From: Candidatus Desantisiibacteriota bacterium
GTDB lineage: Bacteria > JACRDZ01
DNA length: 37,767 nt
Reading direction: 5' to 3'
Assembly: GCA_016209155.1 (NCBI GenBank)
Contig: JACQWU010000323.1
Span: 1-37,767, forward strand
The notes below the pieces were generated by a model. The model ran no database searches and was not told where the DNA came from. It worked only from the letters and a program-made list of their open reading frames with translations. This document shows, in pieces, positions 386-26,135 of this stretch. How positions within the stretch are numbered: position 1 is the first letter of the stretch; every line of letters begins with the position of its first letter. The position numbers and the translations under genes were made by a program.

Positions 386-3300
386 TTATAACAGTTGATC
401 TGCTTGCTCTATATCCAAATTTCCTTCATATACCTGTTCTAATACCTTCTCAATAGAATAAGACGGTGTTGATTCCAAACTAACATGCAATGTCCTATCT
501 GATTTATTTAATTCCTTTGACAGAAATCCGGCAAATTCACGAATTGTCGGATAATCATATATTTTGGTTGCTATAATCGAGATGCCATACTGTTTATTGA
601 TCACCCGCACCCACTCCACACCTGTAACTGAATCCAATCCCATATCAATAAAAGGTTTATCTATATCAACTTCACTATGTTCCATGTATAAGGTTTTCGC
701 TAAGCTTATTGCTAATTCCTCCTGTAATAATTTTATTGATACGGGATTATACTTTTGAATCACAGGTTTAGAATTGTCCATTATTTTTAATTCTGGTAAT
801 GACTTACTTATAGATGGCAGAATGATTTGATTTTGATCTGATGTTTTGTGAGCCGGCAGTTGATTATCTGACAAAGAAGCTAACTTTATTTTGTTTGGTT
901 TTTCAGATTTATTGGATAAAATGATTACTTCTGCAGGTTCGGTCTTTAAAGGGTGTTGAGATAATATCGAACGTGACTTGTCTTCAGAAAGATGAGAGGC
1001 TTTTTTATCCGCTAGAGAATGTATTGACTTTGCATCTGTTGAGGTGCTGCTGCCTGATGGCATAACATTATTTTCTGACAACCAATATCTCTCTTGAACA
1101 AAAGGGTATGTAGGCAAACTTATGCGATGAGGTTTTTTATCACTGTAAAGTTTGCTCCAATTAACATTCAGCCCCTTGCACCAGAGATCCAAAAGTTTAT
1201 CATACTTTTTCCTGCTGATCCAAGTATCAATTGTTTTTTCAATATCTTCATCTTCTGCAATAATAGCCAGTACATCTTTACTGCGCTTAACCTGCCCTCG
1301 ATAGAGGTTCTCAAAATTATCCTGTCCTTCCAAAAACTTCTTAAGTTTTTCTTCAAGTTCTCTGATTGACGACACCATTATTGCCAGGCGATCTTCCATT
1401 GCTTCACGTCCCACTTGAAGGGTATAGGCTATATCTGCTAAATTAGCATCCAAGAATTGCTGTTCAAGAATCGCAGCCAATAATCGTTGAACTTGCTCTT
1501 TAAGGCGATTTTCATTTTTTGCTGATAGTATTATAATTGCAGGGTTCTGAGGGGTAATTGTAATTGACAACTGATTCTCTTTCTTTTGAATGAATTCTTC
1601 GATTATAACATAGGCATTGGCTCCGCCCGCACCAAAAGCAGAAATACCGGCAATTCTTGGATATTCTTTAGTCGCTCCATTGATTTCCAATATAGGACGT
1701 TTCCATTCAGCAAGCTCTTGTTGAACAACAAAGGGAGTGTTTTTGAAATCAATATTGGGATTAAGTATCCTGGAATGCAGCGATGGCACAAATTGTCTGT
1801 ATTTCATCTGTAATAGGACTTTTGTTAATCCCGCTATACCTGCTGCTGATTCCAAATGTCCTATATTTGACTTTACTGATCCGATCGAACAGTATTGCCT
1901 ATCTTCTGTATATTCTCCAAATGCCTTTGTCAGTCCTGTAATTTCTATTGGATCTCCCAGAGATGTCCCTGTTCCGTGAGCTTCTATATAACTAATTGTC
2001 CGAGGGTCTATCTTCGTCCTTTTTAATGCCTCCTTTATCATGTCCGTCTGGGCATTGGGATTGGGGACTGTGTATCCATTGGTCTTTCCACCTGTACTCA
2101 GCATTGTTCCTTTAATAATTCCATAAATATGATCATTGTCAATATTTGCTTTGTGCAATGGTTTTAAGACAATCGCTCCTACTCCCTCTCCTGCCACAAA
2201 CCCATCTGCCTGATTCCCAAATGATTTGCATTGATTGCTTGAAGACAGCATGGTCATTTCAGACAATTTAATATAATGCTCGGGATTTACAATCAGATTG
2301 ACTCCTCCTGCTATGGCGCATTCACTTGTGCCACTATGCAGACTCTCAACAGCCATATGAATCGCTGTTAATGAAGAAGAACAGGCAGTATCCACTGCTA
2401 TACTCGGACCTTGAAAATTCAGAAAATATGAAAGACGATTCGCAATAGACCAATAGCTTGAGCCGGTAGGATAGTTTCCATTCATAACCCCAACAAACAC
2501 TCCAATCTTTCTACTTCCGCAAAGTGTTGCTGGCGTATATCCTGCATCTTCAATGCTTGAATATGCTATTTCCAAAAACAGACGCTCCTGGGGATCTATC
2601 TGTTCTGCTTCTCTTGGAGAAATCTGAAAAAATGCAGGATCAAATTTGTCAATATTCTTGATAAAACCTCCCCATTTAGTATATATTTTTCCTTTTTTCC
2701 CTTTTTCTTCATTAAAGTAGGTTTGCCAATCCCATCTATCTCCCGGAATCTCAGCAATGCAATTTCTGCCATTTTTTAAATTATTCCAGAATTCAATAAT
2801 ATTATCTGCTTCCGGATATCGTCCTGCAAGCCCAATAATAGCAATATCCTGAAATCTGAAATTTTGAGACTCTGTTTGTTCGGTTTTTTGATTATACCGC
2901 TTCAGAAAGCGTCTGTTTTTTCTTATTGGCAAATTGTGATTCTCCGGTGAAGATGTAACATATATTTCATCATTATGAGAAATCTCTTTTTGATGTTCAT
3001 GCTCATCCAAACCCACCAGAGTAATCAATGATTCCTTCTGAGTTTTTATAAGATGATCTGCTACACCATCAATAGTTTGATACTCAAAAAATAAAGTGCT
3101 TGTAATATTATTCAGTACTTTACTGAGAGCACCGGTAAGCCGGACAATGAAAATTGAATCAATTCCATATTTTTCCAGAGGTGTTTTGGAATCGATATTG
3201 TGAGCGGGGATATTAAGGATTTCACCAACTAATTTTTTAATATAATTTATAGTTCTATCACGAAGAGAATCATACTTAATTTCACCGGTTGTCGAATACC

Positions 3301-6300
3301 TTTGTTCTATGGGCTGCTCTTTCCTTACTTCTGCATTAACTTTCTTTTGAACAGACGGTATACTCATTTTTGGCATTAGTTTTTGCCGGACAACCCCATC
3401 ACTTTCAGCAACTATAATTTGTTGACCTAATCTATGAGACTCATGTGCGGGGAAAAATACTGCCCCGAACCCTTCCTCTTTCAATACTTTTTGCCATGTC
3501 TCAGGATATAATCCGGGACAGCCAGGGATACGCAAACCTATATCCTCATACAGCCACCATCCTTCCAGAAGACCGAATGTCAGGTGTGTAAACAATGATG
3601 TATTGGTTATCTCATTTAGAAGTATAACTCCATTTTTTTTGAGCGCTGCTTTGGCATTCTGTAATGTCTGCCTTATTTTTTTCGTGGCATGCAGCACATT
3701 TGCAGCAATCACCAGATCATAACCTCCGGCATTTATTTTTTGGCCTGCTATTGGCGCACTTACATCAAATATACCGTAAGTCAAATATGGGTTCTCTTGC
3801 CCATACTCTTTTTCCGAATGCAAAAGAAATGACATGGAAATATCCGAATAGCAATACTCTTCAATATTATCCTTATACCTCCTAAGTTTCCTGAAGACTA
3901 TCGTGCTGGTACCGCCTGTTCCTGCTCCTATCTCAAGTATCCGAATCCGTGCAGATGGGTCTTGTTTAAGTCTCTCCTCAAAATAGTCAACTACAACATT
4001 GGCAAGCACTTCATTAAAGTAATCCGCAACAGGATTATCTTTAAATATTCCTTCAACCAATGACATTGAAGCATTCGGAAATATTATGTCTGTGGCATTC
4101 ATCTTCCCTTTGAGAATATCAGGTAGTCCTCGGAGAGTTGTCGCTAACAATATCACTTTTGCTTTCATATTGGGGTCTTTCAACCACTGACCCTTTTTCT
4201 GTTCCCATTCTTTCCATAACACATTTATATCTACTCGATTCTTATCTACAACAGTATATAACGCTCCATCAAAGTGTAAGTAATGTTTCCGTACCAAAAC
4301 AGAGATACTTTCTTTTAACCATTTATCATAAAATTCACTCAGACCACTCTTTATTTTGAGGTCAGCAAGCGCCACCTGATCTTCTGTAAATATGCCAATA
4401 GCTTGTAATTGCTCCAAGAGTATCCGGCAGATAACTTCTTCCATTTCCGACATGGCATCATTTTCTTTTAATACTATTTGACGGGTAGATAAAATCTTAT
4501 CTTTAATGATTTGAATAATCGAGGGAAGGGTATTTTCATAAACCGCAATCGCTTCATCTGTATTGACTCCCTTCATAACTAAAGGTTTTATAATCTTTAT
4601 CATAGCTATCTGATCCATCGGGGATACAAGTAGTGTTTCAGTTGCTTTCATACCTTCCGGTGGTTCAATGGAGCCGATCCCTGCTTGTGCTATCCTCTCC
4701 TGATATGCTTTTGAAGAAACAACCCCTACACTGCCCCAATAGCCCCAATTCATTATTTTCACAGTACATGGCCATTCAAGAACAAGCTGATGGGCAAAAG
4801 CATCGTTAAATGTGCAGCCTGCAGCATAGTTACTCTGTCCCGCAGCTTTTACATATGATTGCATGGAAGAGAAAAAGAGGACAAAATCCAATGGCTCGCG
4901 TTTGAATACTTGTACCATTCGCACACTTACGCTAACTTTCGCTGAAAGAGCTGAATTGAATTGCTCTTCTTGCATATTTGCAAGGCTTTGATCCAGGAGC
5001 ACAATTGCTGAATGTACTATCCCGTTTATATTTATATATCGTTGCTTAATCTCTTCATAGGCGCGCTGGAGGTCATCTAAGTTCGATGCATCAGCTGAAA
5101 TATATAGCGGTGCAGGGCCTAAGTCTGTAAGTCTATTTAATTTTGCTTGAATAGTTGGATTATTTTTTCTTCGTCCTATCCATATGATCTGAGCTTTATA
5201 GTTACGAATCATATACTCGCTCCAGACCTCTCCGATCCCTCCTGCGCCTCCTATCACCACATACACACCCCCGAATTTATAGTTAGCACTGGTCTGATTA
5301 GAATGAGGGCAATCTATTAATAACAAGTTTTGTCGATACCATTCACCTTTATTATAGACCCATGCTTCTCCTTGGGAATCAGCCGGTAGCGTAAACATAT
5401 CATAAATTGGCCATTCATCTCTGCTATCCAAATCAATGAACCGGATATTCCAGTTAGGATATTCTTTGGCAAGAGAGCCAACTAGCCCATTAATGCTCGC
5501 ATGAGATGGATTCACTCGATCACCTTTGTGAATAGGTTGAGACTGAATCGTGATTACACTCCAACCTAAATTTCTAGTATCATAGTTCAAACTCAGAAAA
5601 GCCTTAATTATTCTAAAAACTTGCAGCACCCCACAGTTTTGGTTTTCTATAATTGCTTCATCCGCTAGTGATATCAAAGGCGCATATGGAGCAATCCATA
5701 TAACATGATCAATAGTACTGTAATCTCGCAATTTTTGAGTAATATTCTCTATGGTATCATCAGACTCTATGTCTAATGCATATGCGTTTGGATAAAGCTT
5801 CTGAATAGCAAGCCTGTTATTTTCATTTCCACCTATAATCACAACCTGCTTTGTTGATAAAGGAAATATATCTCCATTTGGTTTTGGTATTGAATCCCAT
5901 ACAGGTGTCAGCAAGATATTGCCAACTGGTAACTCGGAGACAGAAGCTTGAATTGCGCTTTCCATCGTCCTTAATGAAAGTCCCTTCATACGCACGCAAA
6001 CATTACCTTTATCATCACATAAATCAATCTCAAATTTGTATATTATGCTCCCTGCTTTGCTACCATTACTATATCGGATAAATGCCCACATCAGCGATGC
6101 GCATTTTCCAAAAATTTCAAGTTCCTCTAGAGCAAATGGCAAGATCGGCTTGCTATAAACAACATCATCAGACAATATCGAATTATCATCACCTATCATT
6201 AAACCTATTGATGCTTGCAAAGCTGAATCCATTAAACAAGGATGCAAAACAAATTGATCTTTAGTATCAGATATAAATGAAGGCAAAGACAGCTTCGCCA

Positions 6301-9300
6301 ACATTTGACTGTCTCCTATAAGCACTTCATTTATACCCTGATGTCTCGAACCATACTCAATCCCCATTGCCTTAAATAACTCATAACATTTGCTAGAAGA
6401 AAGTTTGCTTTTGGTACATTGAGCTTTTAAATCTTTGATATTCAAAATTGGAATTTCAGAAATCGAAATAAGATGTGCTATTCCGCTGCTGTGAGTTACT
6501 ATATCAACATCGCTTTCTTGAGGTGTGCTGTAAATCTCATAAACAATCTCTTTGTTATTCTCAGGATAGAGTCCGATGTGAACATGGACCGGTTGTCCAT
6601 TTACTGATATGGGTTTTGCCCAAACAATATTCTTCAGGCTGATCCCTGTCAGATCTTCACGCAATGCTTTAGTTGACTGTTCCACTGCTGTTCGGGCCAT
6701 TTCAAGATAAGCCACCCCTGGTAAAACTTTTTGGCCATTCACGACATGATCCGCCAGAAAAAACTCGTCACCCGTAAAAGTAGAACTGAACCGCTGCTCA
6801 AATAAATCTGAAGTGTTTTGATGGAGTAAAGGATGAACAGCAGAAATATTAACCATGCTTATTGTTTTACTGCATGCTGCGGAATCTATATCAGTCACCC
6901 AGTAACGTTCTTTTGCAAATGGATAAACAGGCAGGGGAATCCGCTTCGGTATTTGATTTGAATATAATAATCCCCACTCTATCTCCACACCATTTACCCA
7001 AAGCCGCGCTAATCTTGTAAGTTTTTTTTTATTCAGCAATTTTCTTAGAAATTCTTTCCCCTCTTCTTCTTCACCTAAAAGTTCTATTTTCTCTTTATTT
7101 GATTTTATATCCCCTCGATAAACATTTTCAATATCAGATTTTCCCTCGCTATATTGCAACAATTTTTCCAGTAATTCTTTTGTGTTAGATACCACTAATG
7201 CGAGTCTCTCTTCCATTGGTTCCCGTCCCACCTGTAGGGTGTAGGAGATATCCAATAAGTCCGTATCTGATACGTCTTTATTTTCTAAAAATGCCGCAAT
7301 CTCTCTTGAATATACCTTCAGACGCTCTTCATTCCTAGCAGAAAGAACAATAATATATTGTCCTTCCAATGTAACATTAGGACTATTTAATGATTTGTAT
7401 TCCTCTAATATCAGATGAGCATTTGATCCTCCTGCTCCAAATGCGCTGATACCAGCACGACGAGGATATATCTTATCCTTCCCTGCTTCTTTTATAACAG
7501 GTTGTTTCCATTCCTTAAGTTCGCGTTGAATATAAAATGGTGATTCCTCAAAATTAATATTGGGATTCAGTTTCTCAGTATGGATAGAAGGCACCAACTG
7601 CTTATGATTCATCTGTAGTATCATCTTCGTTAATCCCGCTATACCTGCTGCTGATTCCAAATGTCCTATGTTTGACTTCACTGATCCGATCGAACAGTAT
7701 TGCCTATCCTCTGTATGTTCTCTAAATGCCTTTGTTAACCCTGTAATCTCTATCGGATCTCCCAAAGATGTCCCTGTTCCGTGAGCCTCTATATAACTGA
7801 TTGTCCGAGGGTCTATATTCGCCCTCTTTAATGTCTCCTTTATCAGACTTGCCTGAGCATTGGGGTTCGGTACTGTGTATCCTTTTGCCTTACCGCCAGA
7901 ATTAATAGCCGTAGCCTTAATAACAGCATATATATGGTCTCCATCCTCAATCGCTTTCTGCATTGATTTTAAGAGAACCGCACCCACTCCTTCTCCAGGC
8001 ACGTACCCGTTTCCGCCTTCTCCAAAACTGCGACATCTTCCATCACTTGAGGCAAATTTCAACTGGCTTAACAAAATATATTTATTCGGATGGATCGATA
8101 CATTTATTCCTCCGGCTATAGCTAATTCGCTTTCCCCTCTTCGTATACTTTCACAGGCAAGATGTATTGCTGTCAGGGACGATGAGCACATTGTATCTAA
8201 TGCAATACTCGGACCCTGAAGGTTGAAATAATAAGATACTCTATTAGCTATCGATGCATGCAGGGATCCGAGAGCAATTATATTTCCTTTTTGGGATTCC
8301 TTAACTCCAAATAACTGATATTCGCTATACATCACTCCGACAAATACACCCACCCGATTTTTCTCGATACGGGCAAGCGTATAGCCAGCATCCTCAATTG
8401 TGTGCCATACTGTCTCCAAAAAAAGCCGTTCCTGCGGATCCATAACTTCTGCTTCACGCGGAGCGATGTTAAAAAACAACGGATCAAATTTATCCACATC
8501 TTCTATAAAACCACCCCATTTGCTGTAACTGTTTCCTATTTTCTCTTTGTCAGGATTGTAATATTCCTGATAATCCCATCGATCTTGCGGTATCTCAGTA
8601 ATACAATCTTTTCCTTTTTTTAAATTTTCCCAATACTCCTCTATATTTTTTGCCATAGGATATCTACCACTTAATCCAATAATAGCAATATCTTCTGTCC
8701 CATTCTCAGCTTCTTCACTTGAATGCACAAATCTCCCAGGCCGTTGATATCTCTTCAATTCATTATCCTGATATACTTTTTCTTCCATCCCCTTTGTTCC
8801 TGTTTTATTATATCCTCCAATTGCTTCCAGCAGTCTTTCTATGTGGTTCTCTATAAAATATTTTGTAAGTTCTCTTATATTTTTATATTCAAAAAATAAA
8901 GTTTTTGATAATACTCCAAAATGCTCTTCAAGTTCCCTGGTTACATTCAAGATCATCACAGAATCTATGCCGTAACGCTCAAAAGGATCTTCTGATTGTA
9001 TTTTTGAAGACTGTAGCTTTATCTGATGAGAGATTATATTTTTTAAAAATATCTCTGCTTTTTCCTGTAACTGAATCTTCTCTTGGAGTCCATACTGTTT
9101 GCTGTTATATTCCACATCTGCTGAATAATCTTTATTCAACGCATTCTTTATTTGCTCGCCCTCTCCTTCGAGAACAATCAATTGTGAAACAGGAGATATC
9201 AATCCGTCTTCAAAAACCTGAATACCTTTTTCATTGCTTAATGGTCTAGCTCCGGTCAGTTTCTTGTAAAAAGCTATGGAATCCTCAGGTACCACCATAC

Positions 9301-15300: not shown

Positions 15301-18300
15301 TCTGATTAAGATAATGTGCATACGCATCTTTGAATGTACACCCTGCGATATAATTACTCTGACCTGCATTGCCTGCAAAAGAAAGAATCGAGGAGAAAAA
15401 CATCATAAAATCCAATTCTTCTCCTTTTAAAGCTTTGTGTAAAACCACACTGCCTCTGATCTTCGGAGCCAGTGCTAAGCGAAAAGTCTCTTCATCCATA
15501 TTTTTCAGGGTTTTATCTCTCAAGATAATGGCAGAATGAATAACTCCGTTGATCTTGCCAAACTTTGATTTAGTTTCTTTAACAACAGCTTTCATAGCAT
15601 CCAGGTCAATGGCATTAGCTTTCAGATAAAGAACTTCGCCGCCTTTGGATTCAATCAGAGAAATCGTTTCCTTCTGCTCTGCGCTGAGATTGCTTAGTCC
15701 TATCAGTACTAATTTTGCCTGTACTGTCTCAGCAAGATGTCGGCTTAATTCCAGCCCTATGCCTCCACCCCCGCCTAAGATTAAATAGACTCCGTTTTGC
15801 TTAAAAGGTGTTTGACTTACAGATGGCAGACTAACAGGCTCAAATATCCTCGTATACCGCTTATCATTCCTGATTACGACTTCATTGGCTTGATGATGAG
15901 GGGGTTCATCGAGTATCGTTTTAACTAATGTTTGCAATTTTTCTGAATTTTTATGTATGTTCTCTAAGCTTATGTCAATACAGGTTATCTCCCACTCCGG
16001 ATATTCTTTAGCTATGGTTTTGGTTAAACCAAACAGGCTTGCTCCGTATGGTCTTATGATCGCATCCGTCTGTATCTGATGAACATCGTTAGTAATAACT
16101 TTTAACTTAAGTTTTCTCTGGGAAAAGCCACAACTAGATAGTGATTTGATCAAACGGAACAGAGAGAGTATGCCTTCTTCCTGACTCTCTTCCAGATACA
16201 TTAGATCATCCATGTCACTGGCTCCAGTTTGTATTCCTCCAAGAAAATAGATAGTGTTAATATTTTCAAACTGTGTTATACAGTCATTTAGGGCAGTGAA
16301 ATCTCCTATTTTAATCTTACATTTATTTTTTGAATAGTGCTTTGTCTCATCTCCTAACTCAATCTCTATCACTTCATCTTTTGCATTTGCTTTTGCCAAT
16401 GGCTTTTTAAACGCTAAACTTTGAGATGAATAAATAATAAAAATTATTTTTTTATTTGTTCCATCCTTTGAATCTTCTGAAGACTCGATTCGCTTAATTG
16501 ATAATGGAGAAAATTTCCATTTAGGTAATACAAAAAAATCTTGGAACGGATTTTTATATCTTCGTAAGGACACATGACTAAATTCAATACATATTAAACC
16601 TTTATTATTTAAAAAGACTGCATTAAATTGATCCTCATCAATTCTTTTAACATAAGCATATCCCTGATCCTCGAGAGGATGAAATATTTTCACTTCATCT
16701 ATGCTGAATGGCAGTCTAGGTTGATCATGCAGGATTTCATCAGCTGCTGTAAGTCCAACTATAGTCTGAAGAACTCCGTCCAGCATAGTGGGATGAAATA
16801 TAAAGTTTTGAAATTCCTCCTTGAGTGTTTCAGGTAATGCAAGAATAGATAATGCTTCATTTTTATTGAGAAATAATTCTTGAATAGATTGAAGGCTCAG
16901 GCCATAGGCTAATCCCTTTTTTTGAAAATCTTCATAACACTCTTTCTTGCTCTTTCTAACAATACAATTCTTTTTCACAACATCAATATCAATATATTCA
17001 TTTTGGCTTTTTGCTAAATTTTCATATACTAATTCACCCTGTGCATGCATTATTTTTTGACTGTTCTCTCCGATGCTGCTCACTTCGTATGTTGTAGTAT
17101 TACCAGACGAATAGAGGTTGATTTGAATCTCATCTGATTTATTTGATATAGTTACAGGTCTTGCCCAGACAATATTCTTAAGGTTAATTACTTTTTTTCT
17201 GCTTTTAATCTCTTCTGCTGCGCATGCCATTTCAATACATGCAACCCCTGGTAATACCTTCTGTCCAGCTACTACATGATCTTTTAAATAAAATTCATTT
17301 CCAGTAAATAAGGTAGTGAATTTTTTACTTCTCGCATCTGAAACATCCTTGTGAAGGAGCGGATGCAATTTATCAATTCCTTTTTCTTTTGTACGAACCA
17401 AAAAGGATACATGATCGAATATGTATAATGGCAGGGATACTTTATGAAAAATTCCAGATTGATAAAGCGTTTCCCATTTTATATCCACCCCATGTAGCCA
17501 TAAATATAGTAAGGATTTTCTTAAATTAGCAGACATATCTCCTGATATACCTAAATTTATTGATCTGTCTGTATCATCACAATGAATACCTATACCCAGA
17601 TTTAAAAATTTAAATTTTTCTACAGTTGCTGGAATGCCTGATATTAATAGCGCTTTTTTAATCCAGTCATGAATATCAAAAATTTCGCTAAGATTTTGAT
17701 TTTGATCTTTAAGATATTGATACGGATTTTTTAAATTCAAATTATTTTGTCTTTTATTAAGGATATCTACGATAGATTCAAAATCAGGAGTTTTGCTGCA
17801 TAATAATCCAAACAACATTTCTTTAGGTAAAACATCATCTACAATAAGGTCTATCAATTCATACAGTCTTCCATCAAGAACTCGCTGATCCTGAGACAGA
17901 TTCCATTTTTGATCGAGTCTCTGAAGAGAACTCAAAATCACTACTAAAAATAATAGTCTCTCATGCTCAGTATAAATATTTCCTGACAGTAAAAAATTGT
18001 CATCATAAAGCATTTCCATAAAACTGCATTCTGATTGTTTTAGAATGACATTCCATTCTTCTAGATATTTTTTAAAGGTAAACTGACTTGAATTTAATAA
18101 GCGTGCTTTTTGTATAAAATGATTTAACACTTCTTGTGGGACACTCAATCCATCTACAAGCAATTTGAGATAGGTTTTATTAAAATTATATGGTCTTAAT
18201 ACTTGCTCAGTAACATGATCATAAAAAGGAATGGCGGGACGATAAAACTTAACTTGTTGTAGCTCTTTATTATCCGTTAATATACCAAAGATATCCTCCA

Positions 18301-20218
18301 ATCTCATAATTCCACTAACAGCAAGACTTAACCAAAGGCCTGACTTCTCCCCTATAACTAATTCCGGGGAAAATCCTAATTCTATCAAAGTAGATATATA
18401 AGAATAGCCTGCTATAAAAGAATAAATAGGACGATACTTTTCTATCCACTGCTTTTTTTGAAACCTTTTTTGCAGATCCTGATTTTTATCCTGATGCTGC
18501 AAATATTCTATAACCTTATATAGGTTTTGCTCAAAGATATTTTCATTCTCTATGATTGGTCTAATATCATTAAAACCTTTCCATATAAGATCATTAATCC
18601 GTAAACACCAAGGTTGCATTCCTTTCGAAAAAATAACATCCTTTATTTTCAAAGAATCTATCAGGTCATTTTTATTATTTACAATCTTTCCATACCGATA
18701 AGGAAATGAAACTCTTCCCGTGAGAAGTGTTGCACAAACATCTTGAATATTCATATTTGAATAATCATCGCTCTTAACAAATAATTCCCATTCCTTTATC
18801 ATCTTCTCCAGACTTTGTGGAGTTTTTGCCGAAAGGACAAATAAATTATTTGATTCAGACACTCTTTTTTTTCCAGTATCATTTGTTAAAAGGCTTGTGC
18901 ATGACATTTTTTCTAATGGAGAAAATTCTTCCAATAACAAATGGGAATTCACTCCGCCAAAACCAAATGAACTTACCCCTGCCCGCAGTAATAGACTATC
19001 TTCCTTATCCTTCCAATCAGTCAAATCTGTAGCAACTTTAAAAGGTGTCTTTTCAAAATCAATAATAGGATTTATTGTCTTAATATTTAATGTAGCAGGA
19101 ATCTTTCTGTGCCGCATCATTAACAATACTTTTATAATCCCTGCTATGCCAGCAGATGCTTCCAGATGCCCGATATTTGTCTTCACAGATCCTATTTTGC
19201 AAAATTTATTATTTTTCGTATATTTACGAAAAGCTTGGGTAAGCGCCTCTATCTCGATAGGGTCACCTAATGATGTACCTGTTCCATGAGCCTCAATATA
19301 ACTTATTGTTTCCGGATTTAATCCTGCATCTTGATAAGCTGCTAAGATCACATCCTTTTGCGCCTCTATACTCGGCGCAGTGAGCGACAATGCCTTACCC
19401 CCATGATTCACTGCTGAGCCCTTAATGATTCCGTACACATGGGCACCTGCTTCTTCTGCATCTTCTAAGCGTTGCAAGAGGATGGACCCTACACCATCTC
19501 CAGGAACATATCCATCAGCATCTTTATCAAAAGTTTTACATTGACCATTAGGACTGAGCATCCGCGATTTTGAAAACGAAATATATTTCCATTGGTTAAG
19601 ATTCAGATTTACACTGCTTACAATCGCATAATCACATTCTCTTCGTAAAAGAGCACTCTTCGCTTCATGTATTGCTACGAGTGATGAAGCACATGCTGCG
19701 TTAATTGAAATGCTTGCACCTCGCAAATTAAAGACATACGAGATCCGGTTAGCCAATATACTTTCAAAATTGCCCAGGCAATCATAAACATCAGTTTCTA
19801 CATGGGGCGACAATATCTCATGCCGATAATCCACCGTCATTACACCCACATACACTGAGGTCTTTTTCCTCTGCAGAAGAGCAAGTGGTAAGCCTGAGTC
19901 TTCTATGCAATGCCATGTTTCTTCAAGAAGCAACCTCTGTTGCGGATCCATCACACTTGCTTCCCTCGGAGAGATATTAAAAAACCGATTATCAAATTGA
20001 TCAATGTTATCCAGCAGCCCGCACCACTTACTGACACTTTTGTTTGGTTCGTTTATATCAGAAGAATAAAAAGTGTTAATATCCCAGCGATCGGGAGGGA
20101 TTTCTTTAATCAAGTTAACACCGCACACCAGATTGTTCCAAAATTCGATGTAATTTTTAGCACCCGGAAATCTGCATGCAATGCCAATAACAGCGATATC
20201 CTTTATTTCTTTTTTCAT
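386..20218 (-). CDS. trans-AT-type modular polyketide synthase, 6610 aa, four KS modules
   Basis: Single ORF with four KS domains (active-site motifs AACASS, DSACSAS, DTMCSSS, DTACSSS, each with EAHGTGT and NIGHLE), three DH, three KR, two cMT (EIGAGTGGT) and four ACP (GxDS) motifs; no intact AT (GHSxG) seen. Confidence 0.97.
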   Translation of the reverse strand: MKKEIKDIAVIGIACRFPGAKNYIEFWNNLVCGVNLIKEIPPDRWDINTFYSSDINEPNKSVSKWCGLLDNIDQFDNRFFNISPREASVMDPQQRLLLEETWHCIEDSGLPLALLQRKKTSVYVGVMTVDYRHEILSPHVETDVYDCLGNFESILANRISYVFNLRGASISINAACASSLVAIHEAKSALLRRECDYAIVSSVNLNLNQWKYISFSKSRMLSPNGQCKTFDKDADGYVPGDGVGSILLQRLEDAEEAGAHVYGIIKGSAVNHGGKALSLTAPSIEAQKDVILAAYQDAGLNPETISYIEAHGTGTSLGDPIEIEALTQAFRKYTKNNKFCKIGSVKTNIGHLEASAGIAGIIKVLLMMRHRKIPATLNIKTINPIIDFEKTPFKVATDLTDWKDKEDSLLLRAGVSSFGFGGVNSHLLLEEFSPLEKMSCTSLLTNDTGKKRVSESNNLFVLSAKTPQSLEKMIKEWELFVKSDDYSNMNIQDVCATLLTGRVSFPYRYGKIVNNKNDLIDSLKIKDVIFSKGMQPWCLRINDLIWKGFNDIRPIIENENIFEQNLYKVIEYLQHQDKNQDLQKRFQKKQWIEKYRPIYSFIAGYSYISTLIELGFSPELVIGEKSGLWLSLAVSGIMRLEDIFGILTDNKELQQVKFYRPAIPFYDHVTEQVLRPYNFNKTYLKLLVDGLSVPQEVLNHFIQKARLLNSSQFTFKKYLEEWNVILKQSECSFMEMLYDDNFLLSGNIYTEHERLLFLVVILSSLQRLDQKWNLSQDQRVLDGRLYELIDLIVDDVLPKEMLFGLLCSKTPDFESIVDILNKRQNNLNLKNPYQYLKDQNQNLSEIFDIHDWIKKALLISGIPATVEKFKFLNLGIGIHCDDTDRSINLGISGDMSANLRKSLLYLWLHGVDIKWETLYQSGIFHKVSLPLYIFDHVSFLVRTKEKGIDKLHPLLHKDVSDARSKKFTTLFTGNEFYLKDHVVAGQKVLPGVACIEMACAAEEIKSRKKVINLKNIVWARPVTISNKSDEIQINLYSSGNTTTYEVSSIGENSQKIMHAQGELVYENLAKSQNEYIDIDVVKKNCIVRKSKKECYEDFQKKGLAYGLSLQSIQELFLNKNEALSILALPETLKEEFQNFIFHPTMLDGVLQTIVGLTAADEILHDQPRLPFSIDEVKIFHPLEDQGYAYVKRIDEDQFNAVFLNNKGLICIEFSHVSLRRYKNPFQDFFVLPKWKFSPLSIKRIESSEDSKDGTNKKIIFIIYSSQSLAFKKPLAKANAKDEVIEIELGDETKHYSKNKCKIKIGDFTALNDCITQFENINTIYFLGGIQTGASDMDDLMYLEESQEEGILSLFRLIKSLSSCGFSQRKLKLKVITNDVHQIQTDAIIRPYGASLFGLTKTIAKEYPEWEITCIDISLENIHKNSEKLQTLVKTILDEPPHHQANEVVIRNDKRYTRIFEPVSLPSVSQTPFKQNGVYLILGGGGGIGLELSRHLAETVQAKLVLIGLSNLSAEQKETISLIESKGGEVLYLKANAIDLDAMKAVVKETKSKFGKINGVIHSAIILRDKTLKNMDEETFRLALAPKIRGSVVLHKALKGEELDFMMFFSSILSFAGNAGQSNYIAGCTFKDAYAHYLNQNESYPVKIINWGYWGSVGIVANAEYKRRLSAQGLGSIEPKEGMEAIKRTLAYRVDQIISVKADKRLYEMMGIDQNRWIELYPLTIPSILETVITQVQPKIPEIDTVLRLLQAFSELEKFSHKLLIYTFQSMGVFQYQGERYYKEDLIMQLKIIPDYYQMFDALLEIQVKAGFIQLTGQEILTNSRLENAELKEELKDNVNMKKQLLSLYPEIRSHVDLLWACIQSYPDILTGKRDYMEIMFPGGDFSLVEGVYKGNVIADYYNQFMATIVSGYIRYMLHKGDVEQIKILEIGAGTGGTSKFVLEAIREYAQKIRYFYTDISVGFTQYGRKRFGVEYPFVEFKALNIEEDPKAQGFEPNSIDVVIGTNVIHATKRIDNTLNQTKKLLKTSGLFILNELIRVQDFITLIFGLTDGWWLFNDSENRLKNSPLIEMENWRGIFESNGFRKAKILGLPNITEDKTAQRIIIGESDGMVLIKENKKPEKEVKERYPEEIKHIGSNYNEKPINIPASANGLREKVMEYVKSIFSEVLQIKKTDMDEQSNFEKYGVDSLIVMELNKNFERDFGKLPVTLLFEYPSAGALTDYFIKNYTNDIKKRFSLERPSFLENSNQIFTTDKVKKEKGLSEMKYGFTKGESENKTMGDKPEDDSKNPDTVHDIAIIGVSGRYPMSESLKSFWKNLRSGKSCISEVPIDRWDWHKYYNPDSRQTGKSYSKWGGFINEVDRFDPLFFNISPKEAENMDPQERLFLETAWSLFEDAGITRKALAEIDYKVGVFVGVMNNNYVRYGSPVAYWSIANRVSYYFNLQGPSIAIDSACSASLTAIHLACESIKRGESQAAIAGGVNLILHSAHYSNLSSMNMLSRDEKCRAFGDDADGFVDGEGIGAVLLKPLKKAIADGDQIYAVIKGSFINAGGKTSGYTVPNPNAQASLIKETLKRANIDPRTISYIEAHGTGTSLGDPIEITGLTKAFKEYTEDKQYCSIGSVKSNIGHLESAAGIAGLTKVILQMKHKQLVPSIHTEKLNPNINFEESPFYIQRELKEWKQPVIKEAGKDKIYPRRAGISAFGAGGSNAHLILEEYEKPNLQARIENQEQYIIMLSAKDKERLKTYALEMHEYLEKNKDAISLADIAYTLHVGREPMEERLALVVSNTKDLLEKLSLYYESKADIENIFQGNVKVSKAQVGILIEGNAGKEFIGSLINDRKIEKLAQLWTVGIEIDKSLLYSGHKPNRISLPTYPFARDRYWISESENIKGISTRQSQIAMLHPLIDTNESTLEEQCYKKVFTSEDSYIKNHIVENEMMLPGVVHLEMARAAGNLAYRKGKVRKLKDIIWVKPVTVTDGMQDVLISLYSNRDKGVVDFEISTTGEVNSRIIYSYGKLVYDEISDNNEFIDIEAIRARCPNIKSRKECYDMFQSVGLQYGSGFRTIQKMYHNEREALSLIELPKELRGEFQDFVLHPSLMDGALQTVAWLMVSNETASMLSVPFSIGELEIKMPLPEKFYVYVAIAENGYSKDAPLNKFHIQLVDEGGSALVKIKDFLPRLFHNKTKTIQGFNDNELLNKERITDLNTHETLYFHGEWEKMELITKETIKAQRGTILFFDTGEEVFNTLNNRIKNDNNTPAVILVKPKESYSDKGNNIYEINPGQPNDYRRLFKTLREKDKMPDKIIHLWSKEQFTNKEDALRNQLDHGIYSIFHLSQGLMEQKIKGKIHLLYVYSSHANELLPQYAGVTGFAKTIHMENPNFIYKIIDLQITKKFKTNLNPSRLLDLILPEFQSEDRKNVEICYKDGSRFIKNYKEFKLTNKANISLPLKKEGVYVITGGAGGLGLIFAEHLARKVKARLVLVGRSDLSNEKQRKLQGIEKLGSKIMYIKADISQKGDVEKFISKARSRFGEIHGVIHSAGVIRDSLMLKKTKENMEAVLSPKVYGTIWLDEVTKEYPLDFFVMFSSIAAITGNIGQSDYAYGNSFMDNFSEMRRQWKEEGKRSGKTLSINWPLWESGGMVVPEDSIAFYKKLTGARPLSNEKGIQVFEDGLISPVSQLIVLEGEGEQIKNALNKDYSADVEYNSKQYGLQEKIQLQEKAEIFLKNIISHQIKLQSSKIQSEDPFERYGIDSVMILNVTRELEEHFGVLSKTLFFEYKNIRELTKYFIENHIERLLEAIGGYNKTGTKGMEEKVYQDNELKRYQRPGRFVHSSEEAENGTEDIAIIGLSGRYPMAKNIEEYWENLKKGKDCITEIPQDRWDYQEYYNPDKEKIGNSYSKWGGFIEDVDKFDPLFFNIAPREAEVMDPQERLFLETVWHTIEDAGYTLARIEKNRVGVFVGVMYSEYQLFGVKESQKGNIIALGSLHASIANRVSYYFNLQGPSIALDTMCSSSLTAIHLACESIRRGESELAIAGGINVSIHPNKYILLSQLKFASSDGRCRSFGEGGNGYVPGEGVGAVLLKSMQKAIEDGDHIYAVIKATAINSGGKAKGYTVPNPNAQASLIKETLKRANIDPRTISYIEAHGTGTSLGDPIEITGLTKAFREHTEDRQYCSIGSVKSNIGHLESAAGIAGLTKMILQMNHKQLVPSIHTEKLNPNINFEESPFYIQRELKEWKQPVIKEAGKDKIYPRRAGISAFGAGGSNAHLILEEYKSLNSPNVTLEGQYIIVLSARNEERLKVYSREIAAFLENKDVSDTDLLDISYTLQVGREPMEERLALVVSNTKELLEKLLQYSEGKSDIENVYRGDIKSNKEKIELLGEEEEGKEFLRKLLNKKKLTRLARLWVNGVEIEWGLLYSNQIPKRIPLPVYPFAKERYWVTDIDSAACSKTISMVNISAVHPLLHQNTSDLFEQRFSSTFTGDEFFLADHVVNGQKVLPGVAYLEMARTAVEQSTKALREDLTGISLKNIVWAKPISVNGQPVHVHIGLYPENNKEIVYEIYSTPQESDVDIVTHSSGIAHLISISEIPILNIKDLKAQCTKSKLSSSKCYELFKAMGIEYGSRHQGINEVLIGDSQMLAKLSLPSFISDTKDQFVLHPCLMDSALQASIGLMIGDDNSILSDDVVYSKPILPFALEELEIFGKCASLMWAFIRYSNGSKAGSIIYKFEIDLCDDKGNVCVRMKGLSLRTMESAIQASVSELPVGNILLTPVWDSIPKPNGDIFPLSTKQVVIIGGNENNRLAIQKLYPNAYALDIESDDTIENITQKLRDYSTIDHVIWIAPYAPLISLADEAIIENQNCGVLQVFRIIKAFLSLNYDTRNLGWSVITIQSQPIHKGDRVNPSHASINGLVGSLAKEYPNWNIRFIDLDSRDEWPIYDMFTLPADSQGEAWVYNKGEWYRQNLLLIDCPHSNQTSANYKFGGVYVVIGGAGGIGEVWSEYMIRNYKAQIIWIGRRKNNPTIQAKLNRLTDLGPAPLYISADASNLDDLQRAYEEIKQRYININGIVHSAIVLLDQSLANMQEEQFNSALSAKVSVSVRMVQVFKREPLDFVLFFSSMQSYVKAAGQSNYAAGCTFNDAFAHQLVLEWPCTVKIMNWGYWGSVGVVSSKAYQERIAQAGIGSIEPPEGMKATETLLVSPMDQIAMIKIIKPLVMKGVNTDEAIAVYENTLPSIIQIIKDKILSTRQIVLKENDAMSEMEEVICRILLEQLQAIGIFTEDQVALADLKIKSGLSEFYDKWLKESISVLVRKHYLHFDGALYTVVDKNRVDINVLWKEWEQKKGQWLKDPNMKAKVILLATTLRGLPDILKGKMNATDIIFPNASMSLVEGIFKDNPVADYFNEVLANVVVDYFEERLKQDPSARIRILEIGAGTGGTSTIVFRKLRRYKDNIEEYCYSDISMSFLLHSEKEYGQENPYLTYGIFDVSAPIAGQKINAGGYDLVIAANVLHATKKIRQTLQNAKAALKKNGVILLNEITNTSLFTHLTFGLLEGWWLYEDIGLRIPGCPGLYPETWQKVLKEEGFGAVFFPAHESHRLGQQIIVAESDGVVRQKLMPKMSIPSVQKKVNAEVRKEQPIEQRYSTTGEIKYDSLRDRTINYIKKLVGEILNIPAHNIDSKTPLEKYGIDSIFIVRLTGALSKVLNNITSTLFFEYQTIDGVADHLIKTQKESLITLVGLDEHEHQKEISHNDEIYVTSSPENHNLPIRKNRRFLKRYNQKTEQTESQNFRFQDIAIIGLAGRYPEADNIIEFWNNLKNGRNCIAEIPGDRWDWQTYFNEEKGKKGKIYTKWGGFIKNIDKFDPAFFQISPREAEQIDPQERLFLEIAYSSIEDAGYTPATLCGSRKIGVFVGVMNGNYPTGSSYWSIANRLSYFLNFQGPSIAVDTACSSSLTAIHMAVESLHSGTSECAIAGGVNLIVNPEHYIKLSEMTMLSSSNQCKSFGNQADGFVAGEGVGAIVLKPLHKANIDNDHIYGIIKGTMLSTGGKTNGYTVPNPNAQTDMIKEALKRTKIDPRTISYIEAHGTGTSLGDPIEITGLTKAFGEYTEDRQYCSIGSVKSNIGHLESAAGIAGLTKVLLQMKYRQFVPSLHSRILNPNIDFKNTPFVVQQELAEWKRPILEINGATKEYPRIAGISAFGAGGANAYVIIEEFIQKKENQLSITITPQNPAIIILSAKNENRLKEQVQRLLAAILEQQFLDANLADIAYTLQVGREAMEDRLAIMVSSIRELEEKLKKFLEGQDNFENLYRGQVKRSKDVLAIIAEDEDIEKTIDTWISRKKYDKLLDLWCKGLNVNWSKLYSDKKPHRISLPTYPFVQERYWLSENNVMPSGSSTSTDAKSIHSLADKKASHLSEDKSRSILSQHPLKTEPAEVIILSNKSEKPNKIKLASLSDNQLPAHKTSDQNQIILPSISKSLPELKIMDNSKPVIQKYNPVSIKLLQEELAISLAKTLYMEHSEVDIDKPFIDMGLDSVTGVEWVRVINKQYGISIIATKIYDYPTIREFAGFLSKELNKSDRTLHVSLESTPSYSIEKVLEQVYEGNLDIEQADQLL
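505..735 (-). other. ACP4, beta-branching type
   Basis: MGLDSVTGVEWVRVINKQYG; Trp at Ser+6 (Ser codon 629-631, Trp codon 611-613). Confidence 0.85.
1590..2855 (-). other. KS4 domain
   Basis: IAVDTACSSSLTAIH, EAHGTGTSLGDP, NIGHLESAAG. Confidence 0.95.
3025..3275 (-). other. ACP3
   Basis: LEKYGIDSIFIVRL. Confidence 0.9.
3440..4455 (-). other. C-methyltransferase domain cMT2
   Basis: ILEIGAGTGGTSTIV, VIAANVLHATK, NEITN. Confidence 0.9.
4580..5920 (-). other. KR3 domain
   Basis: GVYVVIGGAGGIG and LFFSSMQSYVKAAGQSNYAAG. Confidence 0.9.
5960..6842 (-). other. DH3 domain
   Basis: DHVVNGQKVLPGV and HPCLMDSALQA. Confidence 0.9.
7395..8697 (-). other. KS3 domain
   Basis: IALDTMCSSSLTAIH, EAHGTGTSLGDP, NIGHLESAAG. 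Confidence 0.95.
8830..9075 (-). other. ACP2
   Basis: FERYGIDSVMILNV. Confidence 0.9.
9170..10590 (-). other. KR2 domain
   Basis: GVYVITGGAGGLG and MFSSIAAITGNIGQSDYAYGN. Confidence 0.9.
10680..11514 (-). other. DH2 domain with altered motif
   Basis: NHIVENEMMLPGV (Gly of HxxxGxxxxP is Asn) and HPSLMDGALQT. Confidence 0.85.
12070..13341 (-). other. KS2 domain
   Basis: IAIDSACSASLTAIH, EAHGTGTSLGDP, NIGHLESAAG. Confidence 0.95.
13530..13765 (-). other. ACP1
   Basis: FEKYGVDSLIVMEL. Confidence 0.9.
13940..14990 (-). other. C-methyltransferase domain cMT1
   Basis: ILEIGAGTGGTSKFV, VIGTNVIHATK, NELIR. Confidence 0.9.
15085..16500 (-). other. KR1 domain
   Basis: GVYLILGGGGGIG and MFFSSILSFAGNAGQSNYIAG (catalytic Ser/Tyr). 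Confidence 0.9.
16555..17370 (-). other. DH1 domain
   Basis: DHVVAGQKVLPGV (HxxxGxxxxP) and HPTMLDGVLQT. Confidence 0.9.
17430..18720 (-). other. AT-like insertion of module 1, probably non-catalytic
   Basis: RPIYSFIAGYSYISTLIELGFSPELVIGEKSGLWLSLAVSGIMRLEDIFGIL resembles the AT core around GHSxGE, but GHS is replaced by GEKSG; the segment is absent from modules 2-4. Confidence 0.5.
18925..20203 (-). other. KS1 domain (PKS N-terminus, no preceding loading domain)
   Basis: IAVIGIACRFPGA...SINAACASSL...EAHGTGTSLGDPIE...NIGHLEASAG...SSFGFGGVNSHLLLEEF. Confidence 0.95.
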
Positions 20219-20241
20219 ATTTTTTCCCTTACACCATATTT

Positions 20242-20350
20242 GGTAATGTCAAAAATTAACCACAGAGAACACTGAGAAATTACAGAGTTTTCTCCGTGTT
20301 CTCTGTGGTTCATTTTTTTATCCTTTTTTCATATTACTTTTGACAGTACC
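20242..20350. repeat. CACAGAG repeat with 13-bp terminal inverted repeats, copy 2 (5' of the PKS gene)
   Basis: ggtaatgtcaaaa ... ttttgacagtacc (12/13 inverted match) enclosing accacagagaaca...tgttctctgtggt. Confidence 0.75.
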
Positions 20351-20376
20351 CCATATTTTTGAAATTACTTTTTTCT

Positions 20377-21159
20377 TTATTTTCTGTCATCCCAGGGAAA
20401 CTTCTTATATTTCACATAATTTTCAATATTTTCTCTTACCTTCGGATCAGACATCATCTGGAAACTCTCTGATATAGCTCCTTTTTCCATTTCATCTGTA
20501 ATTAACCACATGCTTCTGAAATAGCTCTTTATATTCTTAATGGTAGATTGCTCCAACCTAAATAATCGCTGAGAAAGATATTGTATACTTCTGTCAGGCT
20601 CTTCGCTGACCTCATCAACTAAATGAATATCAAAAGCTTCTTGCGCTGAAATTGGTAAGGTTGTTAAAGTCATACTATAAGCCTTTTGATATCCCACCCG
20701 TCGGATTAAATACGGTAGCACCATAGCTGGCAATAAACCCCATAATGCCTCAGATAAACTGATTTGAACCCTCGGTGTTGCAATTACCAAGTCACTAGCT
20801 GCTGCTAATCCAACTCCTCCTGCCATAACCTGACCCTCAATCTTAGAAATTATTACTTTCGGGGTTAATGTAAAACGTTTGATAGCTTTCATATATTGGG
20901 ACAAAAATGACATACTATCGTCTTTCTTATCTTGCACATTAAACATTGCAGCCTCTTCAAAATCCATTCCTGTGCAGAACACGTCATTTTGCCCCTCTAA
21001 AATTACTATCCGACATTGAGTATCCTGCTCAGCTTTATCCAATACCTCATTTAATTCCTTTATAAAGGCTCTATTAATACTATTTCGCTGTGATAAGCGA
21101 TTGAATGTGACAGTTATAACCCCTAGCGATTCTTTTACTAAAATTGTGTTATATTTCAC
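20377..21159 (-). CDS. enoyl-CoA hydratase/isomerase family protein, likely ECH1 (PksH-like) of an HMGS cassette
   Basis: Crotonase fold motifs (VILEGQNDVFCTGMDFEE, KIEGQVMAGGVGLAAASDLVIA); C-terminus YVKYKKFPWD recalls the ECH1 subfamily; sits in the PKS operon. Confidence 0.85.
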   Translation of the reverse strand: MKYNTILVKESLGVITVTFNRLSQRNSINRAFIKELNEVLDKAEQDTQCRIVILEGQNDVFCTGMDFEEAAMFNVQDKKDDSMSFLSQYMKAIKRFTLTPKVIISKIEGQVMAGGVGLAAASDLVIATPRVQISLSEALWGLLPAMVLPYLIRRVGYQKAYSMTLTTLPISAQEAFDIHLVDEVSEEPDRSIQYLSQRLFRLEQSTIKNIKSYFRSMWLITDEMEKGAISESFQMMSDPKVRENIENYVKYKKFPWDDRK

Positions 21160-21191
21160 GTTTGCTCACCATAATATCAATCAACTCCATA

Positions 21192-21276
21192 TTTACTCAA
21201 GTTGATTGACTTTTTTATTTGATATATGTAAATCTATTACGTATCAAGCAAAAAAGTCAGTCAACTTGAGTATTTA
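21192..21276. repeat. inverted repeat between the KS and ECH genes
   Basis: tactcaagttgattgactttttt / aaaaaagtcagtcaacttgagta, about 23-bp arms, one mismatch. Confidence 0.75.
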
Positions 21277-22563
21277 CAAAACAGCTCTTTTCAATAGAAT
21301 ACTTGTGTTTATACCTCCGAATCCAAAGGAATTACTCATTGCAATATTAATATCAGCTTGTGTTGAAATTGCCCTATTAAATCGACATTCATCATCAATG
21401 GGATTATCTAAATTTATATTAGGATGTACAAATCTATCTCTTATTTGAATAATTACCGCAATCGCTTCGACTACCCCTGCTGAGTACAGACAGTGTCCAA
21501 TTAAGCCCTTAGTTGAATTAATCCATACACGTGATAGATTTTTTTTGAATACCCTCCGAATAGCTCTAATCTCCGTTTCATCCCCTAACTGCGAAGACGA
21601 CCCGTGTGCATTTATATAATCTACATCCTCTGCCTTAACTTTAGCTTGATTTAATGCGAATTCCATTGCCCTGACTTCTCCATCCTCATTCGGATTAGAT
21701 AAACGATTGCCATCAAGAATGAGGGATGCTCCTAAAATTTCAGCTAATATGTGAATGTCTCGCTTTTTTGCAGATTCCAAGGACTCTAAAATGAGACATC
21801 CGCTGGCCTGACCATAAATAAATCCTTCATGGTCTTTATCAAAGGGACGACACGCCTTCTCTGGTTGATCATGAAAACGTTTTCCGCCCATGGCACCGAT
21901 GTTATAGAATCCTTGTAATTCCATGGGTGATAAATCTGCTATTGAACCCACTACCATACATGCATCAACAACACCTAATTGAATAAGCTGATATCCCTTT
22001 AAAATTCCAACATTACCACTGGCAGATGCCCCTCCTACAGTAAATCCTTCCCCTCTAATATCAAAAACCTCACTTAATATCCCAACATGATCAGTATCCA
22101 TATAATGTAGCGCATAACTTGGAGTTATGTATTCAAATGATTGAAAAAACTTTTGATATAAGTCATATTGAAAATTCATAGTAAGATTACTACCGGCTAT
22201 AATAATCCCAAAACGGTCTGGGGAAATTGTCACTTTATTGAGTCGAGCATCTATCCATGCCTCTAATGCTGATAAAACAGAACACTGTATCGCATATGGT
22301 AAACGCCAAGTACAATGTTTTGCTTTTTGCAATATTTCTTCTCCTAACAAAGTATATTGCTGAATAATTGATTCAAATGAAAAATTACTAATCTTAGCGC
22401 CAATTTTAACTGAAATAGCAGGTTTAGATAAATTCTCTAAATACTCTATACCATTTTGCCCAATCTTCAATGATTGTCCATAGTCATTAACATTATGCCC
22501 TATAGGACTAATAATTCCCATCCCTGTAATAACAACACGCCGTTGCATATGATCATTCATCAT
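21274..22563 (-). CDS. decarboxylating ketosynthase-like protein (PksF-like, Cys to Ser)
   Basis: KS fold with FTVGGASASGNVGI (Ser codon 22024-22026 at the Cys position), NAHGSSS and STKGLIGHC; start overlaps the ACP stop by 4 nt. Confidence 0.9.
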   Translation of the reverse strand: MMNDHMQRRVVITGMGIISPIGHNVNDYGQSLKIGQNGIEYLENLSKPAISVKIGAKISNFSFESIIQQYTLLGEEILQKAKHCTWRLPYAIQCSVLSALEAWIDARLNKVTISPDRFGIIIAGSNLTMNFQYDLYQKFFQSFEYITPSYALHYMDTDHVGILSEVFDIRGEGFTVGGASASGNVGILKGYQLIQLGVVDACMVVGSIADLSPMELQGFYNIGAMGGKRFHDQPEKACRPFDKDHEGFIYGQASGCLILESLESAKKRDIHILAEILGASLILDGNRLSNPNEDGEVRAMEFALNQAKVKAEDVDYINAHGSSSQLGDETEIRAIRRVFKKNLSRVWINSTKGLIGHCLYSAGVVEAIAVIIQIRDRFVHPNINLDNPIDDECRFNRAISTQADINIAMSNSFGFGGINTSILLKRAVL

Positions 22564-22814
22564 TTTAAACCTGACATCTTTTTTTCATATAAAATATCCA
22601 CCAGCCCTTGAATATTAGTAACCTTAGCAAATTCTACAAGGGGGATATTTATCCCAATAATCTCTATTATTCTTACTACTATATCCATTCTATCAATGGA
22701 ATTCGCCCCTATATCCTTTAGACTTTCTTCTATCCTGATTCCCTCGACTTGTATCCCAGGCAGTATCTCTACAATAGTATTTTTAACAATTTGGTAAATT
22801 TTTTCTTTGGTCAT
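22560..22814 (-). CDS. discrete acyl carrier protein (AcpK-like donor ACP)
   Basis: 84 aa with DIGANSIDRMDIVVRIIE phosphopantetheine Ser motif. Confidence 0.9.
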   Translation of the reverse strand: MTKEKIYQIVKNTIVEILPGIQVEGIRIEESLKDIGANSIDRMDIVVRIIEIIGINIPLVEFAKVTNIQGLVDILYEKKMSGLK

Positions 22815-22823
22815 AGTAACCTT

Positions 22824-24305
22824 TCAGTCAATTTGAGTTAATGTCTGAAAACGCTCATTTAACAGATTTGCTGTCTTTTCCATCAGCATTACTCCGATTT
22901 CATCAACATATCGATTTTTCCAATGTTCCATCGGAGTTCCCTTCACCCACTGATTAAACGCACCCAAGGCAGGGCCGCACTGTATCTGATAATCCACTTC
23001 ATGACCTGGGCTACCACTGAGTGCCAGGTGCGTAGAATAACCAAAATACCATCTAAAAATAAAAGCCATTTTTTGTTTAGGATTTCGTTCTGCTTTTTCT
23101 ATTTCTTCCGGTGGATAGTATAATTTGACTTCCTTATATATCTCATCAAAAGTCCGTTTAAAATATTTTTCTTGGATCATCTTTTTGGACTTCTCATCAA
23201 TTTCATCTAAAGAATTATATTGACGATACAAGTCATACAATTTATTTGCCCTTGCTGGAAAAAACACTCCTTTCTTCAGAACCTGAACCTTTGCCCCAAT
23301 CTCAAACATATCGCCTGCTGGCGCGTATTCTGTATCCTGTATATTTATCTCCTGCAGCATATTCTTCACCTCATCACTAGTACCAGCTTCAACAGTGCAT
23401 TGATTGATTGAACCCGTAAGAATGAAATCAGCACCTAAAATAAAAGCTGCTGCTGCTGCCTCAGGGGTTCCAATCCCACCAGCGGCCCCGACCCTTACCT
23501 TCTTTGAATATTGATATTTTTCCATCATCTCATTCCGCAGCTTGATAATCGCTGGCATCAAAGCGTAAGCCACCCCTCCATCAGTATGCCCGCCAGAATC
23601 CGCCTCTACACAGATATCATCTGCCATAGGGATATCTCTCAACATGCGAGCTTGTTCCTTAGTGATTTTATTCTCTTGCATTAGCTTTTCCACAATCCGT
23701 TCAGACGCAGGACTCAAGAATGCCTCAGCAACTTCCGGTCTTGATACCTTTGCTATTACCCTGTTGGCAATGGAGATTGAACCATTCCCATTCCGTTCTA
23801 ACCCAGATGCACGATATCGTACCAGTGGGGGCGTTATAGCCATATATGCTGATGCCTCGATTGTTCTTACATGATATTTCAGGAACAGATCTACAGCCTT
23901 TTCTTCTTTTTTTGAGTCAATTGGGTTGAATAGTAAATTCATACCATATGCATGTTCATCACCTAATTCATTTTGAATATATTGAATGGATTCCTCGATC
24001 TGTGGTATTTCTAAGCCGCCTGTACCAAAAAATCCCAACATTCTCACCTTGCCCATTTTTACGACCATCTCTTTAGAGGATATTCCCTTATACATTGAAC
24101 CTGTAGCATATGCATACTTGAGCTTATAATCTCTTTTAAATTCTTTATCTCCTAAAGACGAAGCTGTAATTATTGTCTGCGTTTGCTTTTCTGCATTATT
24201 AACTACAACCGAATTTATAGTTCTGGAGGATACTTCTTCTTGCAGTTGTTTTCTTTCCTGCATAAAGCCATTTTCATCATCTGTAATTATATGTAACTGT
24301 CTCAT
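22824..24305 (-). CDS. PfaD/PksE-type trans-acting enoyl reductase
   Basis: [59 protein letters not shown] typical of PfaD family flavoproteins. Confidence 0.93.
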
Positions 24306-24786: not shown

Positions 24787-24946
24787 AGGGGTCATCATGA
24801 AATAAATATCACAAGATTGCGCAGGATTTTGGGCTGTATTCAAGGCGCTTATGAGGGCGCATACTGAATGTATGTAACCGAACAAGCAACGCAGAAGACA
24901 GTTCAAAAGACTAGCAAGATGTGATAGTTATTTCATGACGACCCCT
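24787..24946 (+). mobile_element. 160-bp MITE-like element, copy A
   Basis: Ends aggggtcatcatgaaataaatatcaca ... tgtgatagttatttcatgacgacccct; about 96% identical by eye to the reverse complement of 25976-26135. Confidence 0.8.
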
Positions 24947-25975: not shown

Positions 25976-26135
25976 AGGGGTCGTCATGAAATAACTATCA
26001 CATCTTGCTGGTCTTTTGAGCTGTCTTCTGCGTTGCTTGTTCGGTTACATACATCCAGTATGCTCCCTCACAAGCGCCTTGAATACAGCCCAAAATCCTG
26101 CGCAATCTTGTGATACTTATTTCATGACGACCCCT
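25976..26135 (-). mobile_element. 160-bp MITE-like element, copy B (inverted)
   Basis: aggggtcgtcatgaaataactatcaca ... tgtgatacttatttcatgacgacccct; same length as copy A, inverted. Confidence 0.8.

Follow-up and report, generated by a model that had tools for sequence, protein, structure and literature searches.

The HMGS cassettes of the bongkrekic acid (BonF-I/BonN) and bacillaene (PksF-I) pathways contain a donor ACP, a KS with an S-H-H triad, HMGS, ECH1, ECH2 and a Trp-flagged acceptor. The roles of the cassette members in beta-branching have been set out (PMC12560621). The S-H-H triad is characteristic of decarboxylating KSs, as described in the lasonolide paper (PMC9600693), and the Trp flag is a recognized mark of beta-branching ACPs (PMC12560621, PMC9600693). 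In Candidatus Parabeggiatoa sp. 3 (QNEL01000049.1 and other contigs), the cassette (ACP-KS(Ser)-HMGS-ECH1-ECH2) is complete and contiguous; PfaD and two ATs are encoded on the opposite strand. The cluster of Vallitalea sp. McD1.14 holds ATs, PfaD, ACP, Ser-KS, HMGS and ECH1. Its line is much larger than the one described here: a single contig gave 16 PKS KS matches, and ECH domains lie within modules.

The window, the whole stretch of DNA that was analyzed, is a contig of 37,767 nucleotides (JACQWU010000323.1, here C290) from a Candidatus Desantisiibacteriota bacterium (GCA_016209155.1). The assembly is 3.08 Mb in 352 contigs, is an estimated 79% complete and is probably a metagenome bin. The same cassette parts occur in it. 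Unlike those of Bon, Pks and Parabeggiatoa, they are split: ACP, KS and ECH1 precede a megasynthase in the window, and HMGS and ECH2 open another contig, C43. Parabeggiatoa has a homologous KS1-pseudo-AT module, with identities of 68% for the Ser-KS, 62% for PfaD and 65% for ECH1 (against the ECH1-position gene of its locus L018). The first module of Vallitalea, KS1-pseudo-AT-KR, is also similar (33% over 1598 aa). The window carries the opening portion of a trans-AT PKS pathway, which very probably continues on C43.

Gene and domain order in the window

Five co-directional genes lie on the minus strand at 386-24305. These genes and the domain order of the original prediction were both recovered, from ORF coordinates and from Pfam and NCBIfam identities. 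The features are as follows.

22824-24305, minus: PfaD-type trans-acting enoylreductase; TIGR02814 699.7 bits (cut-off 449.25); 62% identity to the Parabeggiatoa homolog
22560-22814, minus: discrete donor ACP of the HMGS cassette; PRK07117 82 bits (cut-off 79); 60% identity to the ACP adjoining the cassette KS of Parabeggiatoa L018
21274-22563, minus: decarboxylating KS (Cys to Ser; S-H-H); PRK07103 518 bits (cut-off 445); GGASASG; His residues kept
20377-21159, minus: ECH1 of PksH type, predicted to dehydrate; PRK07112 is the best NCBIfam match; PksH 3hp0, E=1e-44
386-20218, minus: four-module trans-AT PKS protein, 6610 aa (ORF, Pfam and NCBIfam)
18923-20200, minus: KS1 of the starter-KS clade, active site INAACASS (tree clade 98/100; PDB matches)
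17504-18586, minus: pseudo-AT (AT-like) insert, GHSxG changed to GEKSG (homologs and AT profile match)
16529-17365, minus: DH1 (domain match; HVVAGQKVLP and HPTMLD motifs)
15239-16321, minus: KR1 with structural subdomain (domain match; Ser-Tyr and NADPH motifs present)
13883-15076, minus: C-methyltransferase 1 (PF08242; match to DisA protein 6cca)
13541-13756, minus: ACP1, no Trp flag (domain match)
12059-13339, minus: KS2 (domain match; PDB matches are trans-AT KSs; in KS tree)
10649-11437, minus: DH2; HxxxGxxxxP motif with Asn for Gly; retains the catalytic His (immediately ahead of the start given here) and Asp
9299-10519, minus: KR2 (domain match, motifs)
8849-9076, minus: ACP2, no Trp flag (sequence motif)
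7421-8695, minus: KS3 (domain match; in KS tree)
5945-6835, minus: DH3 (domain match, motifs)
4721-5791, minus: KR3 (domain match, motifs)
3419-4321, minus: C-methyltransferase 3 (PF08242)
3029-3265, minus: ACP3, no Trp flag (sequence motif)
1583-2866, minus: KS4, catalytic motifs intact (domain match, motifs)
509-736, minus: ACP4, Trp six residues past Ser (DSVTGVEW), predicted beta-branching acceptor; alone with Trp at Ser+6 among seven PKS ACPs
389-481, minus: C-terminal tail, putatively of docking type; sequence IEKVLEQVYEGNLDIEQADQLL

The megasynthase ORF is uninterrupted. Pfam, NCBIfam and motifs place its domains in the order KS-(AT-like)-DH-KR-cMT-ACP / KS-DH-KR-ACP / KS-DH-KR-cMT-ACP / KS-ACP. 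Chance cannot account for an open frame of 6610 aa in which sixteen catalytic and carrier domains follow in order with their motifs intact. The predicted trans-AT type is supported by the lack of a catalytic integrated AT and by KSs that match trans-AT KSs. The cMT, DH and KR domains agree with the methylated and unsaturated units proposed originally, and the TIGR02814 score, well above cut-off, agrees with a PfaD-type ER acting in trans. The left end of the window is the contig end. Its 385 non-coding bases (1-385) contain the inverted repeat GTCATTCTGAGCGAAGCGAAGAATCTG, which may have caused the assembly to break here.

HMGS cassette parts and contig C43

The discrete KS has Ser for Cys at aa 180 (GGASASG) and keeps both His residues, which confirms the predicted Ser active site and gives an S-H-H triad. 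The window ECH scores 245.5 bits on PRK07112, just under the cut-off of 250, and PksH is its second-best PDB match. With the PRK07103 score of the KS and the discrete ACP, the triad and the PksH-like ECH identify ACP-KS(Ser)-ECH as the donor-ACP/KS0/ECH1 half of an HMGS cassette, rather than the "front end" it had been called. The sole HMGS of the bin lies at C43:3-755. It is cut by the contig start and retains the C-terminal 250 aa (52% identity to the Parabeggiatoa HMGS); its N-terminal part, ~160 residues, was not found elsewhere in the bin. An ECH2-type crotonase follows (PRK07110, 391 bits against a cut-off of 215). The halves on the window and C43 are complementary, with no duplication, and their members are predicted to act as beta-branching enzymes.

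A candidate acceptor lies in the last module of the window. Trp at Ser+6 (GLDSVTGVEW) is found in one of the seven PKS ACPs on the two contigs, ACP4; Trp makes up 1.3% of the window megasynthase. Module 4 consists of KS4-ACP4 without a KR, so that the beta-keto group needed by HMGS would be available. From the unique Trp flag, the KR-less module and the cassette, we infer a beta-methyl branch at this module. The "unreduced beta-keto unit" originally assigned to it would most likely be converted to this branch, the flag marking the last KS-ACP as beta-branching.

C43 holds two or three further PKS proteins, with the order KS5-DH-KR-cMT-ACP-KS6-DH, then KR-ACP-KS7-ACP-KS8-cMT, and no final ACP. 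The assembly line in the window is partial, as proposed, but with these proteins, HMGS and ECH2 on C43 it is neither "compact" nor built on a "single megasynthase". KS5 is interrupted at its HGTGT motif by an in-frame TAG (C43 2755-2757), and the reading frame is open both before and after it; the codon may reflect an error of assembly, variation between strains or a genuine break. At C43 14946-18014, a methyltransferase separates the last KS from its linker, with no ACP behind it. C43 also carries two discrete AT-family genes, one with GHSLG, a PPTase, and a Lol-type exporter (ABC ATPase with a LolC/E-like permease, and a LolA-like protein).

Downstream of the C43 PKS genes are a benzoate-CoA-ligase-family enzyme and a CylI-like type III PKS, whose best PDB match is CylI (E=4e-19). 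An MxnB/CorB-type pyrone-forming ketosynthase was also considered on C43; no such name is among the PDB matches listed. Cylindrocyclophane is made by a cis-AT line, whereas the line upstream of the CylI-like enzyme here is trans-AT. A CylI-like type III PKS was not found in the Parabeggiatoa genome, nor any type III PKS in the related genomes.

KS1 and its AT-like insert

Pfam detects no AT domain in the 6610 aa, and the sole AT-like stretch lacks the GHSxG Ser/His. The KS that precedes it, KS1, has 7zma, PksL and PksJ, all trans-AT KSs, as its best PDB matches. Combined scores had suggested a cis-AT type KS; this assignment was dropped because KS1 alone best matched trans-AT KSs. A 44-KS tree groups six first KSs in a single clade (support 98/100), among them the window KS1 and that of an MlnB-like protein of Bacillus velezensis pDMB05-1 (macrolactin type). 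The clade is common to this B. velezensis, Bacillus cereus, Vallitalea, Parabeggiatoa and, weakly, Sandaracinus. The MlnB-like protein, the first of its line, begins with this KS1 and a homologous pseudo-AT, and the later modules of that line differ from those of the window. Its mln assignment is putative, from gene neighborhood. Macrolactin has an acetyl-type starter and is not known to carry a beta-branch.

The pseudo-AT resembles an AT profile in 72 columns that surround the nucleophile (E=1.7e-8); KR, MT and DH controls all gave under 1% probability. The remainder has no detected AT likeness and carries conserved motifs of its own (QFTFKKYLEEW, KWDL). Parabeggiatoa, two further genomes of its order, Vallitalea and another Clostridia genome all have homologs behind KS1. 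So do the MlnB-like protein and a B. cereus plasmid; the match in Sandaracinus is weak. GHSxG is lost in all ten aligned sequences. Searched against plasmids, the pseudo-AT by itself reached no more than 35% identity, and an AlphaFold model from two sequences was uninformative (pLDDT 34). From these likenesses we read KS1 and the pseudo-AT as a conserved initiation unit. By the clade shared with the MlnB-like KS1, the starter is probably an acetyl-type unit.

Proposed pathway, alternatives and host

In the proposed pathway, KS1 and the dead AT-like domain would initiate with an acetyl-type start. Module 1 would add a C-methylated, unsaturated unit, module 2 an unsaturated one and module 3 again one that is C-methylated and unsaturated. 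The discrete ATs of C43 would supply malonyl, and a double bond would be reduced in trans by PfaD. Module 4, a KS-ACP that lacks a KR, would leave a beta-keto group. The Ser-KS would turn malonyl-ACP into acetyl-ACP, and HMGS would add the acetyl on the Trp-flagged ACP4. Dehydration by ECH1 and decarboxylation by ECH2 would then give the beta-methyl branch, and the chain would be handed to the C43 PKS proteins. We regard this explanation, a beta-branching trans-AT line whose first part is in the window and which continues on C43, as highly probable. The locus is a real trans-AT PKS with predicted beta-branching, and the pathway, which we could not match to a described one, appears to be undescribed but is of a familiar type.

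One point to weigh is the link between the contigs. No overlap between the window and C43 was found, and because the two are not physically joined, one cluster is likely but not proven. The complementary cassette halves, the location of the bin's sole HMGS on C43 and the similar composition (tetranucleotide correlation 0.98 between the non-PKS parts) support one cluster. Besides the lack of overlap, it is weakened by the ~160 missing HMGS residues, the 79% completeness, the TAG in KS5 and a second UvrA. The window UvrA (31700-34510) shares 63% identity with the UvrA of two phylum mates, and a second full-length UvrA in the bin (G000:C227:5093-7897) is 83% identical to the window copy. These identities fit the window contig to the lineage; the bin may also contain a second, related organism. 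An empty-site comparison with C227 revealed no shared flanking genes or neighbors. C43 could instead be a separate PKS pathway, the window ACP-KS(Ser)-ECH being decayed and without HMGS and module 4 yielding a truly unreduced beta-keto unit. The absent overlap, fragmented bin, paired UvrA copies and KS5 TAG would all suit such a separation. We nonetheless consider it improbable, given the unduplicated halves of one cassette, the similar composition and the Trp flag on ACP4. A PUFA-synthase-like (Pfa) lipid pathway is suggested by the PfaD family match and is already contradicted. The PfaA model TIGR02813 scores 665-714 bits, far under its cut-off of 1010; cMT domains, the beta-branching cassette and trans-AT type KSs are present and a tandem ACP array is not. 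This leaves the Pfa reading with almost no probability.

A serious rival concerns the insert alone and is compatible with the beta-branching line that we favor. The pseudo-AT may be what neutral evolution has left of a cis-AT and play no part in initiation. Truncated AT-like domains without the Ser-His dyad have been described behind other trans-AT KSs (MmpF, OzmQ KS1 and MgsF KS4), where they were interpreted as evolutionary intermediates (PMC10098928), so the dead domain is not a new phenomenon. That AT resemblance is left over only about 72 residues also fits a remnant. Yet the insert is long, its own motifs are kept across distant phyla, and in the clusters examined it sits behind the first KS of a single clade. 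We lean slightly away from a neutral remnant, which could well be correct. A more specific proposal is that KS1 and the pseudo-AT form a conserved multi-phylum initiation unit, the dead AT remodeled for starter choice or loading. Here it would begin a polyene line ending on the CylI-like type III PKS. The product would be a methyl-branched lipid of the polyene-resorcinol or polyene-pyrone kind, which the Lol-type transporter would move outward. We hold this proposal as a tentative and rather doubtful one.

No PfaD match was found in the three phylum-mate genomes examined, and G+C is 37% in the PKS genes versus 33% in the flank. On this absence in relatives and the higher PKS G+C, the pathway may have been acquired by horizontal transfer. 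Beyond the PKS genes, a 160-bp inverted repeat (24787-24946 and 25976-26135, 95.6% identical) surrounds a LuxR-type response regulator (25317-25952), a unit that is possibly a small mobile element. Two small overlapping plus-strand genes (26349-26633 and 26630-26905) look by eye like a putative BrnT/BrnA-type toxin-antitoxin pair. Candidatus Aminicenantes isolate Ww63 (5.7-Mb genome) is very PKS-rich, with 78 KS matches.

The locus adds a trans-AT PKS with predicted beta-branching from a very sparsely sampled phylum (three other genomes examined). The stretch originally labeled AT-like proves to be a dead domain that is conserved across phyla and goes with a starter-KS clade. Conservation of this KS-pseudo-AT unit makes the question of how the first unit is loaded directly testable in a Bacillus that grows easily.
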